Shown here: positions 2,442 through 10,342 of the stretch, piece after piece
How the letters are laid out: every line of letters begins with the position of its first letter
Numbering within the stretch: position 1 is the first letter of the stretch
NCBI RefSeq assembly: GCF_010119205.1
Contig: NZ_WRXM01000002.1
Span: 550,982-614,981, forward strand
Source: Haloarcula limicola
Lineage (GTDB): Archaea > Halobacteriota > Halobacteria > Halobacteriales > Haloarculaceae
Length of the DNA stretch: 64,000 nt
Direction of reading: 5' to 3'
Position numbers and translations under genes: made by a program
Notes under the pieces: generated by a model
What the model was told of the DNA's origin: nothing
Seen by the model: the letters and a program-made list of their open reading frames with translations, nothing else
Databases searched by the model: none

Positions 2442-4190
2442 GTGAACACAGTCGAACGATGGAAACAGGAGAAACACCCGCTCGACGTCGTCGAAGACGT
2501 GAAGCGGTACGCGGCACGGGAGTTGAGCTTCGAGGAGATAGAGGAGAGAGCGGGCGACGGAGAGTGGGAGCGGCTGAAGTGGGCGGGCCTGTACGCGCAC
2601 GGGCGGCAGGACGGCTACTTCATGCTCCGGACGAAGGTGCCCGGCGGGCGACTGACGCCCGCACAGGCAGAGGTCGTCGGCGACGTCGCCGCCGAGTTCG
2701 CCACCGCCCCCGAAGCGTACGGCGGCGAGACCCAGAACCCGGTCTGGGGCGACGCGTTCCTCGACATCACGACGCGACAGGACGTCCAGATGCACTGGAT
2801 CGAGATCGAGGACGTCCCCGAGATCTGGGCGCGCTACGACGAGGTCGGACTGACGACGATCCAGGGCTGTGGCGACTCGGCGCGGAACGTGCTGGGCTGT
2901 CCGGCCGCCGGACTCGCCGACCACGAGTGTTTCGACGCCCAGCCGGTCGTCGACGCTGTCTCCGATTTCTTCACGGAGAACCGCGAGTACGCGAACCTCC
3001 CGCGGAAGTTCAAGATGACGATCACGGGCTGTCGTCACGACTGCGCCCAGTCCCAGATAAACGATGTGGGACTGACGCCGGCGAAGAAGGCGCTCGACGG
3101 CGACGCGGCGCGCGGCGAGCACTACGGCTTCCACGTCCGCGTCGGCGGCGGCCTCTCGGACGGCCCGCGAATGGCCTCGGCGCTCGACGTGTTCGTCCGA
3201 CCGGAGGACGCCGTCGAGTTCTGTCGCGCCGTCGCCCAGACGTTCAAGGAGTTGGGCGACCGGAACAACCGCGGCGTCTGTCGGATGCGCTATCTCGTCG
3301 AGCAGCTGGGTGCGGACGCGTTCGAGGAGGCCGTCCGGGACCGCTGTGCGGTCGCGTTGCCGACTCGCGGGACCGACCTCACCGAGGGGTACCGCGGCGA
3401 CCACGTCGGCGTCCACGACCAGCGCGACGCCGACCTGAGCTACGTCGGGTTCAACGTCGTCGCCGGGCGGATGGGCGGCGGGGAGTTCGCACAGGCCGCG
3501 CGCGCGGCCCGCGAGTACGGCACCGACGAGGCATCGATACGGCTGGCGACCGACCAGAACTTCCTGCTCACGCACGTTCCCGACGAGAGCGTCTCCGCGC
3601 TGCTCGCCGAGCCGTTCGCCGCCGACTATCAGCCCGATCCCGGCCCGTTCTCGCGGGGCGCGGTCGGCTGTACCGGCTCGGAGTTCTGCAACTACGGTAT
3701 CATCGAGACGAAACGACGGGTCCGCCGGTGGGCGAAGGAACTGGACGAGCGAATCGAGACGCCCGACGACCTCGACGTGATTCGGATGCACATGTCGGGC
3801 TGTTCGGCCTCGTGTGCCCAGCCGCAGATCGCGGACATCGGCTTTCGCGGCGAGACGGTCCAAGTGGCTGAATCGGAACGTAGCGTCAACGGCGAAGGTG
3901 ACGCTATCGTCGAGGGGATGGACTTCGGCCTCGGCGGGAGCCTCGGCGCGGACAACGCCTTCCTCGACTGGGTGGAGACCGCCGTCCCGGCCGACGCCGT
4001 GATTCCGGCACTCGAAGAACTGTTCGCCGTCTACGCCGCCGAGCGAGACGGCGGCGAGCGGTTCTACGAGTGGTGTCGTCGGGTCGGCAACGACCGGCTT
4101 CGCTCGATCATGCGGCGAGCCGACGCCGACGTCGCCGGCGGCGTCGCAGCCGACGATTCGGCCGGAAGAGGGGCGAGCGACGATGACTGA
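2442..4190 (+). CDS. Siroheme/[4Fe-4S] nitrite or sulfite reductase
   Basis: The 582-residue protein belongs to the assimilatory nitrite/sulfite reductase superfamily: two ferredoxin-like halves and two siroheme-binding halves. It carries the cofactor signature C-x5-C (C410, C416 in CTGSEFC) and C-x3-C (C454, C458 in CSASC), which hold the [4Fe-4S] cluster and siroheme. A degenerate first half has QGCGDSARNVLGCP and TGCRHDC. The reaction is the six-electron reduction of nitrite to ammonia or sulfite to sulfide; sequence alone does not decide which. I chose the GTG at 2442 because the homologous N-terminus (VERWKQEKHPLDVVEDV) follows at once and upstream codons look non-coding. It overlaps the next gene by 8 bp, which implies translational coupling with a likely electron donor. 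Confidence 0.88.
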   Translation: MNTVERWKQEKHPLDVVEDVKRYAARELSFEEIEERAGDGEWERLKWAGLYAHGRQDGYFMLRTKVPGGRLTPAQAEVVGDVAAEFATAPEAYGGETQNPVWGDAFLDITTRQDVQMHWIEIEDVPEIWARYDEVGLTTIQGCGDSARNVLGCPAAGLADHECFDAQPVVDAVSDFFTENREYANLPRKFKMTITGCRHDCAQSQINDVGLTPAKKALDGDAARGEHYGFHVRVGGGLSDGPRMASALDVFVRPEDAVEFCRAVAQTFKELGDRNNRGVCRMRYLVEQLGADAFEEAVRDRCAVALPTRGTDLTEGYRGDHVGVHDQRDADLSYVGFNVVAGRMGGGEFAQAARAAREYGTDEASIRLATDQNFLLTHVPDESVSALLAEPFAADYQPDPGPFSRGAVGCTGSEFCNYGIIETKRRVRRWAKELDERIETPDDLDVIRMHMSGCSASCAQPQIADIGFRGETVQVAESERSVNGEGDAIVEGMDFGLGGSLGADNAFLDWVETAVPADAVIPALEELFAVYAAERDGGERFYEWCRRVGNDRLRSIMRRADADVAGGVAADDSAGRGASDDD

Positions 4191-5802
4191 GGAGCGTCGC
4201 GAGCGCGGTATCGCGCCGGCCGACGCCGCCCCGGAACTCGTAGACGGCGAGTTCCGCTGCGGTGACGGCGATGCTGATCCACCGGTCGTCACCGACGGCG
4301 GCGACCCGCTCCCGGGCGTACCGGAGACGGGCGGAGACGAGTCGGACGACGCCTGCGGCTGCGGGAGTTCGTGTGGCTGTAGCGGCCACGGGAAGAGCGA
4401 CTCGGCGGGCCACGGAGTCGGACCGGACACCGATTCCACTGTCCGTCCCGACGGCGGGGCCGGGGCCGCCAACGTGGACGAGCGCGGCTCGCTGGGCGAC
4501 GTCTCGTTCACCGAGCCCGCATCGGGCGTCAGTCAGGACGTCGAGGACGGCCCCCCTGACGAGCGGGTGGGCGCCCCCGACGGCGTCGAGTTGGAGACGC
4601 CCGGCTACGGCGTCCGCGAGGAGATGAACGACATCGAGACGCCCGACGAGAAGACGTGGTTCATGGAACTCGACGAGGCGGTCATCGACGCCGACCGCTG
4701 TATCCAGTGTGGCACCTGCGTCGCCGCCTGCCCCAGCGACTCCATCGGCATCGGCGAGGACGACCTGCCGGAACTCGTCAAGATGTGTACCGGCTGTTCG
4801 CTGTGCTGGGACATGTGCCCCCGCGGCGGCCTGCGCTACGAGCGCCAGTGGAAGATCACCGGCGGCGACGACAACGTCTCCGGGGCCGGCGACCCCATCA
4901 CGGAGTTCTCCGCGCGCGTCCGCGAGGACTGGCGCGAAGGCGCACAGGACGGCGGCGTGGTCACCAGCGTCCTCTGTCACCTGCTGGAGGCGGGCGAGAT
5001 AGACGGCGCGCTGATCGCCACCGAGAGCGACGATGATCCGTGGAAGGCCGAGTCGTTCCTCGCCACCACGCCCGAGGAGTGCGTCGCGAACGCGGGGAGC
5101 TTCTACAACCAGACGCTCGCGCTGGGGAACTTGGACCTCTCGCGCTGGGAGCACAAGCTAGACGTCCCGCTTTCGGAGGCATCGCTCGCGCTCGTCGGCA
5201 CGCCCTGCGAGATAGAGGGTATCCGGGCGCTCCAGGACTTCGAGTGGGACTACGCCGCCCAGGAAGACGGCGTGCGGGCCGTCGACTACACCATCGCGCT
5301 GATGTGTACGAAGAACTTCAACTACTACTCGCTCGTCGGCGAGCGCATCGAGACCGAGCGGGGCATCGACCGCGAGGACATCGGGAAGATGGACGTCCTC
5401 CACGGGAAACTGATGGTGTACGGCCGCGACGGCGAGATGCTTCTAGAGGAGGACGTCGAGGAGTTCCACGACGCCGCGCTCAAGGGCTGTGACGAGTGCG
5501 CCGACTTCACGGGCTACTGCGCCGACCTCACCGTCGGCTCCGTCGGATCGAGCGACGCGTACTCCTCGGTCATCGTCCGCACCGAACGCGGACTGAAAGC
5601 GTGGGAACTGACCGAACCGGACCTCGACTACCACGACCTCGAGGACCGCTCGGCCGTCGGCGGCCTCCAGAGTTGGGATAAGAAGAAAGCCTTCGAGTCC
5701 TTAGAGCGACCCTTCGATCCCGATGCACCGCGCTTCATCGACTACACCGACCACGCCGAGCAGTACGGGACGGAGCCGAACCCCCACGAGGCCGACCACT
5801 GA
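4183..5802 (+). CDS. FrhB-like F420-binding iron-sulfur oxidoreductase subunit
   Basis: The 539-residue protein has three parts. The first is an acidic, Gly-rich N-terminal extension (about 1-150) with a Cys cluster C-x-C-x3-C-x-C at residues 58-66. Next is a two-cluster ferredoxin domain (C173, C176, C179, C183 and C202, C205, C208, C212). Last is a C-terminal FrhB/FdhB-type domain with GTPCEIEGIRAL and the CDECADF...GSVGSSDAYSSVIVRT region. FrhB-family proteins bind FAD, [4Fe-4S] and coenzyme F420, which haloarchaea make. It starts inside the end of the siroheme reductase gene (ATGACTGA overlap), so I infer that it passes electrons from reduced F420 to that reductase. The Cys-rich extension is unusual for the family and may bind a metal or another cluster. 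Confidence 0.85.
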   Translation: MTEERRERGIAPADAAPELVDGEFRCGDGDADPPVVTDGGDPLPGVPETGGDESDDACGCGSSCGCSGHGKSDSAGHGVGPDTDSTVRPDGGAGAANVDERGSLGDVSFTEPASGVSQDVEDGPPDERVGAPDGVELETPGYGVREEMNDIETPDEKTWFMELDEAVIDADRCIQCGTCVAACPSDSIGIGEDDLPELVKMCTGCSLCWDMCPRGGLRYERQWKITGGDDNVSGAGDPITEFSARVREDWREGAQDGGVVTSVLCHLLEAGEIDGALIATESDDDPWKAESFLATTPEECVANAGSFYNQTLALGNLDLSRWEHKLDVPLSEASLALVGTPCEIEGIRALQDFEWDYAAQEDGVRAVDYTIALMCTKNFNYYSLVGERIETERGIDREDIGKMDVLHGKLMVYGRDGEMLLEEDVEEFHDAALKGCDECADFTGYCADLTVGSVGSSDAYSSVIVRTERGLKAWELTEPDLDYHDLEDRSAVGGLQSWDKKKAFESLERPFDPDAPRFIDYTDHAEQYGTEPNPHEADH

Positions 5803-5946: not shown

Positions 5947-6105
5947 ATGACAGAGCGAATCGCCTGCCGGGAAGCGGGGTTCGACTGCGACTTCACGATC
6001 GAATCGGAGAACGAGGCGGAACTCGTCGACTTCGTCCGCATCCACGCTCGTTCGACGCACGATAAGGACATCTCCGAGAACGAGATCCGCGAGATGTTCC
6101 AGTAG
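5947..6105 (+). CDS. DUF1059-like small protein
   Basis: The 52-residue protein begins MTERIACREAGFDCDFTIES and ends HDKDISENEIREMFQ. The spacing of its two N-terminal Cys and the F-x-I-x-S-E-N-E-A-E-L pattern match the DUF1059 family of small prokaryotic proteins with no assigned function. The frame shows strong haloarchaeal codon bias and starts with ATG. It stands alone between the reductase operon and the convergent KDPG aldolase gene. Confidence 0.7.
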   Translation: MTERIACREAGFDCDFTIESENEAELVDFVRIHARSTHDKDISENEIREMFQ

Positions 6106-8938: not shown

Positions 8939-10342
8939 ATGGTACTCGACGACTTGGGGAGTTCGCTCCGGGGGACTCTAGACGACCTCCGGGGGAAGTC
9001 CCGCATCTCCGAGGAGGACATCGAGGACGTCGTCAAGGAGATCCAGCGCTCGCTGTTGCAAGCCGACGTCGACGTCGCGCTCGTGAAGGAGCTCTCGAAC
9101 AATATCGAGCGTCGCGCCCTGGACGAGGAGCCGCCCGCCGGCACCACGCCGCGCGATTGGGTGCTCCGGATCGTCTACGAGGAACTGGTCGACCTCGTCG
9201 GCGAGTCCACCGACATCCCGCTCGAAGAGCAGACCATCATGCTCGCCGGCCTCTACGGCTCGGGGAAGACCACGACGGCCGCGAAGATGGCGTGGTGGTT
9301 CTCGACGAAGGGGCTCAGACCCGCGATCATCCAGACTGACACCGACCGCCCCGGCGCGTACGACCAGTCCAAGGAGATGGCCGACCGGGCGGAGGTCGAT
9401 TTCTACGGCGACCCCGACGAAGACGACCCCGTGAAGATCGCCCGCGACGGCCTCGAAGCCACCCAGGAGGCCGACGTGCGCATCGTCGACACGGCGGGTC
9501 GAGACGGCCTGAACGAGGAGCTCATCGAGCAGATAGAGCGCATCGAAGACGAAGTAAGGCCCGACCGGAACCTCCTCGTGCTCGACGCCGCGATGGGCCA
9601 GAGCGCGAAGAGCCAGGCCGCCGACTTCCAGGAGGCCATCGGCATCGACGGCGTCGTCATCACGAAGCTCGACGGGACGGCGAAAGGCGGGGGCGCGCTC
9701 GCCGCCGTCGACGAGACGGACTCGACCATCGCCTTCCTCGGCTCCGGCGAGACGGTCAAGGACATCGAGCGCTTCGAGCCCTCGGGATTCATCTCCCGCC
9801 TGCTCGGGATGGGCGACCTGAAGCAGCTCACCGAGCGCGTCGAGCGCGCGATGGAGGAGACCACGCAGGGCGAGGACGACGACTGGGAACCCGAGGACAT
9901 GATGGAAGGGTCGTTCACCCTCAAGGACATGCGAAAGCAGATGGAGGCGATGAACAACATGGGGCCGCTCGACCAGGTGATGGACATGATCCCCGGGCTG
10001 GGCGGCGGCCTGATGGACCAGTTGCCCGACGACGCGATGGACGTGACCCAAGAGCGGATGCGCGACTTCGAGGTCATCATGGACTCGATGACCGAGGAGG
10101 AACTGGAGAACCCCCGCGTCGTCGGCCAGAGCCGGACCGAACGTATCTCGCGCGGATCGGGCAAGCCCGAGGAACGCATCCGCGAACTGCTCCAGCAGCA
10201 CAAGCAGATGGATCAGATGCTGAAGCAGTTCCAGGGGATGGGCGACGGCGACATGGAACGGATGATGCAGCAGATGCAACAGCAGCAGGGCGGCGGTGGC
10301 GGCATGGGCGGCATGGGCGGCGGTGGCGGCCCGTTCGGCTGA
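8939..10342 (+). CDS. ffh: Signal recognition particle GTPase SRP54
   Basis: The 467-residue SRP54 protein has an N domain (about 1-95), a G domain with GLYGSGKTT (104-112), DTAGRDG (184-190) and TKLD (242-245), and a Met-rich M domain (about 300-450) that binds signal sequences and 7S RNA. With SRP19 and 7S RNA it targets nascent membrane and secreted proteins to the translocon through FtsY. The C-terminus ends in a Gly/Met tail ([15 protein letters not shown]), common in haloarchaeal Ffh. The gene stands alone here: no ftsY or prefoldin gene is next to it. A T-run follows at 10402. Confidence 0.95.

Follow-up and report, generated by a model that had tools for sequence, protein, structure and literature searches.

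The window, a 64,000-nucleotide stretch of the Haloarcula limicola genome (contig NZ_WRXM01000002.1, positions 550,982 to 614,981), possesses a pair of overlapping forward-strand genes that encode a siroheme reductase (alpha, aFsr-alpha type; 2442..4190) and a protein combining ferredoxin-type clusters with an FrhB domain (beta, aFsr-beta type; 4183..5802). It is moderately probable that the two together constitute a soluble two-subunit F420H2:sulfite oxidoreductase (aFsr), driven by reduced coenzyme F420 (F420H2). The broader assignment, an Fsr-like enzyme of two subunits built on a siroheme scaffold of the assimilatory type, has good support: the adjacency of the genes is conserved, the folds match and the cofactor motifs are complete. 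Such a pair had been proposed before: Susanti and Mukhopadhyay named aFsr-alpha and aFsr-beta in 2012 and predicted them in a few haloarchaeal genomes, independently reaching the same assignment (PMC3448663), and the name recurs, as putative, in a later paper (PMC9295563). Our verdict is that this putative enzyme is real, widespread and already predicted; added here are the quantified co-conservation of the pair, a split in the anion-site residues that is tied to NasA, the haloarchaeal assimilatory nitrate reductase, and the association of rhodanese-reductase fusions with FrhB.

Alpha starts with GTG, comprises 582 codons and terminates with TGA at 4188-4190. Beta (539 aa) starts with ATG at 4183 and stops with TGA at 5802, so that the alpha stop and the beta start share 8 bp (4183..4190, + strand; ATGACTGA). 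The two open reading frames lie in different frames and do not make up one polypeptide. The overlap is consistent with translational coupling, and orthologous pairs likewise overlap or abut. An initial annotation of this DNA had described a complete siroheme reductase overlapping by 8 bp an FrhB-like protein with two ferredoxin clusters, and had stressed that the genes are separate and the reductase assimilatory in type; coordinates, strands, Pfam domains and alignment all agree with this description.

A sample of 117 genomes of the order was searched with each protein. Full-length orthologues of the window pair, referred to below as type A (77-82% identity for alpha and 72-80% for beta), were found in one shared set of 27 genomes; in all 27 the two genes are neighbours with a common orientation, either overlapping or only a short distance apart. 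A separate scan of species genomes placed alpha directly upstream of beta in 78 of 80 named loci; the two samples are not fully independent because some species are shared, and the adjacency counts exclude a few partial betas from fragmented draft assemblies. The adjacency on which the initial annotation had staked its reading thus holds in both samples, and with these counts chance neighbourhood was rejected. Of the two loci that break the pattern, one (L155) is on a contig whose start falls just upstream of beta, and the other (L176) is a solitary second copy of beta. The genome with the solitary beta has a normal pair elsewhere (L165), and Halorubrum laminariae has two copies of the pair (L117, L118) on a single scaffold, separated by about 41 kb. 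Among named betas, that of Haloarcula amylovorans is closest to the window's (89% identity). Distances of alpha and beta between genomes correlate (r 0.70), which adds little beyond shared descent. Genes for signal recognition particle (SRP) GTPases, ftsY and/or ffh, lie near the pair in 12 of the 27 loci (e.g., L035, L039, L041), suggesting an old, mostly vertically inherited position. The sampled genomes of one family, presumed to be that of Haloferax volcanii, yielded no pair. Outside Halobacteriales, a 197-genome sample of the phylum (bacteria were not searched) yielded 14 distant NirA-type loci with 25-35% identity, none with an FrhB homologue within the fetched stretch of up to about 5 kb on each side. 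It is very likely that alpha and beta form a physical complex.

Pfam matches of beta, all above cut-off, comprise a 4Fe-4S dicluster domain followed by FrhB_FdhB_N and FrhB_FdhB_C. The dicluster contains two ferredoxin-type [4Fe-4S] motifs (C173/176/179/183 and C202/205/208/212; 4699..4818, +), kept in 106-107 of 107 type-A betas and in all 8 betas of a second, diverged pair type (type B, described below). The FrhB_FdhB N and C domains (aa 242-476; 4906..5610, +) would hold the FAD (flavin adenine dinucleotide) and F420 site, as predicted from Pfam and the fold match. Within them, C342, C375, C436 and C439 (PC-x32-C-x60-C-x2-C; 5206..5499, +), invariant in the 107 type-A and 8 type-B proteins, correspond to the FAD-adjacent cluster discovered in Fsr, whose motif is PCX40CX54CX2C (PMC10229431). 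All 12 cysteines of the three [4Fe-4S] clusters are conserved. The second ferredoxin motif of Fsr is one cysteine short (PMC9295563), and a glutamate serves as a ligand of one Fsr cluster (PMC10229431), whereas the second motif of beta is complete and classical. By sequence, the nearest solved relatives of beta are Fsr halves and F420-reducing dehydrogenase subunits, including that of the F420-reducing carbon monoxide dehydrogenase (CODH), with E-values of 1e-39 to 1e-41. An AlphaFold model built from a 36-sequence alignment (mean predicted local distance difference test score, pLDDT, 72; mostly above 83 at residues 161-530 apart from a few lower loops) superseded an earlier 12-sequence run (mean pLDDT 53). 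Its fold matches the F420-reducing CODH (Z 40.3), the F420-reducing formylmethanofuran dehydrogenase (Z 38.8), Fsr (Z 36.0 over 319 residues, 33% identity) and FrhB (Z about 30).

The window belongs to a 3.9-Mb haloarchaeal genome, the content of which was probed by targeted searches only. It encodes CofD above the equivalog cut-off (344.7 vs 257 bits) and a CofE-family ligase, also above cut-off. According to a 2021 review, halophilic archaea make F420, but its role there is undetermined (PMC8498797); a review of haloarchaeal annotation from the same year terms its importance "enigmatic" (PMC8305020). F420H2 is likely to be the electron donor of the pair.

Alpha belongs to the four-domain NirA/aSir assimilatory type of siroheme/[4Fe-4S] oxyanion reductases. 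NIR_SIR and NIR_SIR_ferr, above cut-off, are its only Pfam matches, and profile and solved-structure comparisons fit it far better to NirA than to DsrA/B or Fsr. Alignment confirmed the siroheme-[4Fe-4S] ligands C410, C416, C454 and C458 (CX5C-Xn-CX3C; 3669..3815, +), which the initial annotation had recognized. The predicted anion-binding residues are R112 (2775-2777), R148 (2883-2885), K189 (3006-3008) and K191 (3012-3014), spanning 2775..3014 (+), a sulfite-reductase pattern in the alignment; judging by conserved motifs and general knowledge of the fold, we take them to map onto the anion site of Fsr. Plant nitrite reductases carry asparagine at the fourth position of this site. Sulfite in Fsr is held by two arginines and two lysines (PMC10229431).

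This fourth position divides the haloarchaeal enzymes. The arrangement R-R-K-K was found by alignment in all 27 type-A, 8 type-B and 22 Sir-class enzymes, whereas a NasA-linked class has R-R-K-N, with asparagine fourth in all members examined. All 20 genomes from which Asn-class reductases were fetched have NasA above cut-off, and several of these reductases lie close beside it. The window genome encodes three siroheme reductases of the family: one of the Sir class with lysine (L002), one of the Asn/NasD class (L003), and alpha itself, which is about 44-45% identical to the other two; neither of those has an FrhB partner beside it. Two NasA-class genes above cut-off (L068, L069) are also present. 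Type A occurs without NasA above cut-off in 11 of its 27 genomes, and in four of these (G026, G038, G087, G088) alpha is the sole siroheme reductase of its kind found. Sulfite is likely, rather than nitrite, to be the main substrate, judged from the R-R-K-K and not R-R-K-N pattern, the 11 genomes without NasA and the fusion of the sister type to rhodanese. Our gradings for complex, donor and substrate are estimates and depend on one another. The initial annotation, which had reduced F420 feed nitrite or sulfite reduction, is thereby supported in its Fsr-like pairing and narrowed towards sulfite; the F420H2 donor we still infer. A strong phosphoadenosine phosphosulfate (PAPS) reductase gene adjoins the Sir-class gene of one genome (G025). 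The PAPS-reductase family PF01507 was dropped as a marker of sulfate assimilation, as it matches nearly every genome.

In the proposed reaction, F420H2 would hand a hydride to the FAD of beta, from which single electrons would run to the adjacent cluster (C342/375/436/439) and onwards to the two ferredoxin clusters of beta. Docked at the site where ferredoxin binds in ordinary NirA/Sir enzymes, beta would pass them on to alpha and its siroheme-[4Fe-4S] centre, where sulfite may undergo six-electron reduction to sulfide, for assimilation or detoxification.

Several observations weigh against an F420H2-driven sulfite reductase. The same two-subunit, F420H2-driven enzyme may have nitrite as its physiological substrate, for detoxification or assimilation. 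MtFsr prefers nitrite over sulfite in vitro, which makes sulfite-type residues compatible with nitrite (PMC10229431), and Fsr group II of anaerobic methanotrophic archaea (ANME) reduces nitrite, not sulfite, with F420H2 (PMC9295563). The nearest solved structures to alpha are ferredoxin-nitrite reductases, and NasA is commoner in type-A genomes than in the rest (16/27 vs 18/90; Fisher p 0.0002, uncorrected for phylogeny). Alpha, however, scores below the curated cut-off of the ferredoxin-nitrite reductase model NF007125 (379.5 vs 594 bits) and lacks the asparagine of the nitrate-linked class, a class of which the window genome and the 20 NasA genomes already have a member. With the 11 genomes that hold the pair but no NasA above cut-off, and with a sister type fused to a sulfur-transfer domain, we consider nitrite quite improbable as the physiological substrate. 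It also counts against a sulfite reductase that no sulfur-assimilation gene is constant beside the pair; apart from the housekeeping SRP genes the surroundings vary among the 27 loci, and no nitrogen gene is constant there either. In the open-access literature (subscription papers lie outside this scope) we found no report of a haloarchaeal member being tested biochemically or genetically, in line with the initial annotation, which knew of no experimental description of such a pair; the prediction itself dates from 2012.

A second rival reading concerns the donor. HCAR, a plant chlorophyll reductase that does not use F420, shares the FrhB fold with the beta model (Z 30.5), and beta might likewise be an FAD/Fe-S adaptor fed by ferredoxin or another donor. 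The F420 loop of FrhB is only partly conserved: like the FAD-binding QDGGVV helix start, its glycine is conserved in type A, and the following lysine (GK), present in the window beta, is replaced in 43 of 107 type-A orthologues. This lysine varies in other FrhB family members too and was for that reason rejected as a decisive F420 marker. With the glycine invariant and the lysine not, the predicted site favours F420 but is not proof of it. Haloarchaeal nitrate assimilation relies on a 2Fe-2S ferredoxin, according to work cited in PMC8305020. An adaptor role is nevertheless unlikely, as beta is far nearer in sequence to F420-active enzymes than to HCAR (E 7e-4) and F420 biosynthesis is present in the genome; a ferredoxin-driven reductase would need no flavin adaptor, and the genome's two other siroheme reductases do without an FrhB partner. 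We regard as very improbable a further possibility, in which a Sir-class enzyme performs sulfite assimilation and the substrate of the pair is a different oxyanion or sulfur species, such as selenite or sulfite released locally from thiosulfate. It draws on the presence of both alpha and L002 in the window genome, so that one of them would be redundant for plain sulfite assimilation, on the type-B rhodanese fusion, which points to thiosulfate-derived sulfite, and on the reduction of selenite by MtFsr (PMC10229431). No neighbouring gene hints at another substrate, and the genomes with alpha as their only such reductase also speak against it.

The second kind of pair, type B, comprises eight diverged loci (L060-L067; alpha 44-52% and beta 38-47% identical), adjacent in 8 of 8. 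With a tandem rhodanese ahead of the reductase, its alpha is about 800 aa long. The second rhodanese domain has an LYCNTARR cysteine loop in all eight, and no matching cysteine loop is found in the first domain at these eight loci. A 2024 survey counts 19 rhodanese-NirA fusions among 529 halobacterial proteins and suggests a role in sulfur metabolism; its passages on these fusions do not mention an FrhB partner (PMC11237513). From their sequences and neighbours, we recognize the rhodanese-reductase fusions examined here as putative reductase subunits of a second aFsr type, which is new here. In a maximum-likelihood tree (quick search, no outgroup; support by the Shimodaira-Hasegawa approximate likelihood ratio test, SH-aLRT), type A forms one group (support 100), type B another (99), and a further split (99) sets the two jointly apart from the Sir and NasD classes. 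This grouping fits a single origin of the coupling of the reductase to FrhB. The fusion suggests an F420-linked thiosulfate/sulfite enzyme, in which sulfite freed from thiosulfate by the rhodanese would be reduced on the spot by the adjoining siroheme domain. We tentatively speculate that F420H2-driven sulfite reduction arose in haloarchaea on a NirA-type scaffold, apart from the Dsr-based Fsr of methanogens, that it may represent a physiological job of F420, and that the rhodanese-fused form could be an F420H2-driven thiosulfate reductase.

The closest known system is the aFsr of 2012, from which the window pair shows no essential difference: the two subunits, the group of organisms (haloarchaea) and the proposed reaction are the same (PMC3448663). 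Three traits of aFsr are found here, namely an aSir/NirA-type subunit, a free-standing FrhB following two ferredoxin-type [4Fe-4S] motifs, and neighbouring genes; F420H2-dependent sulfite reduction is predicted. Orthologues were retrieved from the genera of the genes named in 2012 (Hbor, Huta, HacJB3, Htur; PMC3448663): Halogeometricum, Halorhabdus, Halalkalicoccus and Haloterrigena. Neither the nitrite/sulfite residue split nor the rhodanese-fused variant is described in that paper's passages on aFsr. Compared with methanogen Fsr group I (PDB 7NP8, 7NPA), the fold, clusters and FAD site of beta match those of the N-terminal half, and alpha shares the anion-binding Arg/Arg/Lys/Lys and the CX5C-Xn-CX3C motif; Fsr, however, is a single polypeptide with a Dsr-like C-terminal half and an inserted ferredoxin domain, whereas alpha is of the four-domain NirA/aSir type without insertion. 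The FNiR/Fsr group II of ANME also ties an F420H2-oxidizing half to a siroheme reductase, but is fused and Dsr-like, reduces nitrite and has altered sulfite-binding residues (PMC9295563). Haloarchaeal ferredoxin-dependent NirA/NasD and Sir enzymes are homologous to alpha but lack an FrhB partner; the NasD class has asparagine in place of K191 and is NasA-linked. FrhB, FpoF/FqoF and the beta subunit of the F420-reducing CODH (PDB 8RIU) resemble beta in the FrhB domain and FAD-adjacent cluster, most of them in the ferredoxin domain as well, but their partner enzymes differ from alpha.

A widespread pair that is likely to consume F420H2 would give F420 a job in haloarchaea, and makes the role of F420 there directly testable by genetics and biochemistry. 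If so, two distinct types of siroheme reductase would have come to be coupled to the FrhB electron-input module. For haloarchaeal annotation, the fourth anion-site residue together with synteny offers a rule to separate sulfite from nitrite reductases.

Beta also has a disordered acidic N-terminal extension containing a cysteine motif, CGCGSSCGC (aa 58-66; 4354..4380, +). A similar motif, CGCGSSCGC or in others CSPDTCTC, is shared by 89 of the 107 type-A betas, and type B lacks it; as a guess, it might be an extra metal site or a sulfur carrier. A small DUF1059 protein is encoded on the same strand about 145 bp downstream of beta (5947-6105), and ffh lies near the pair in the window (8939-10342).

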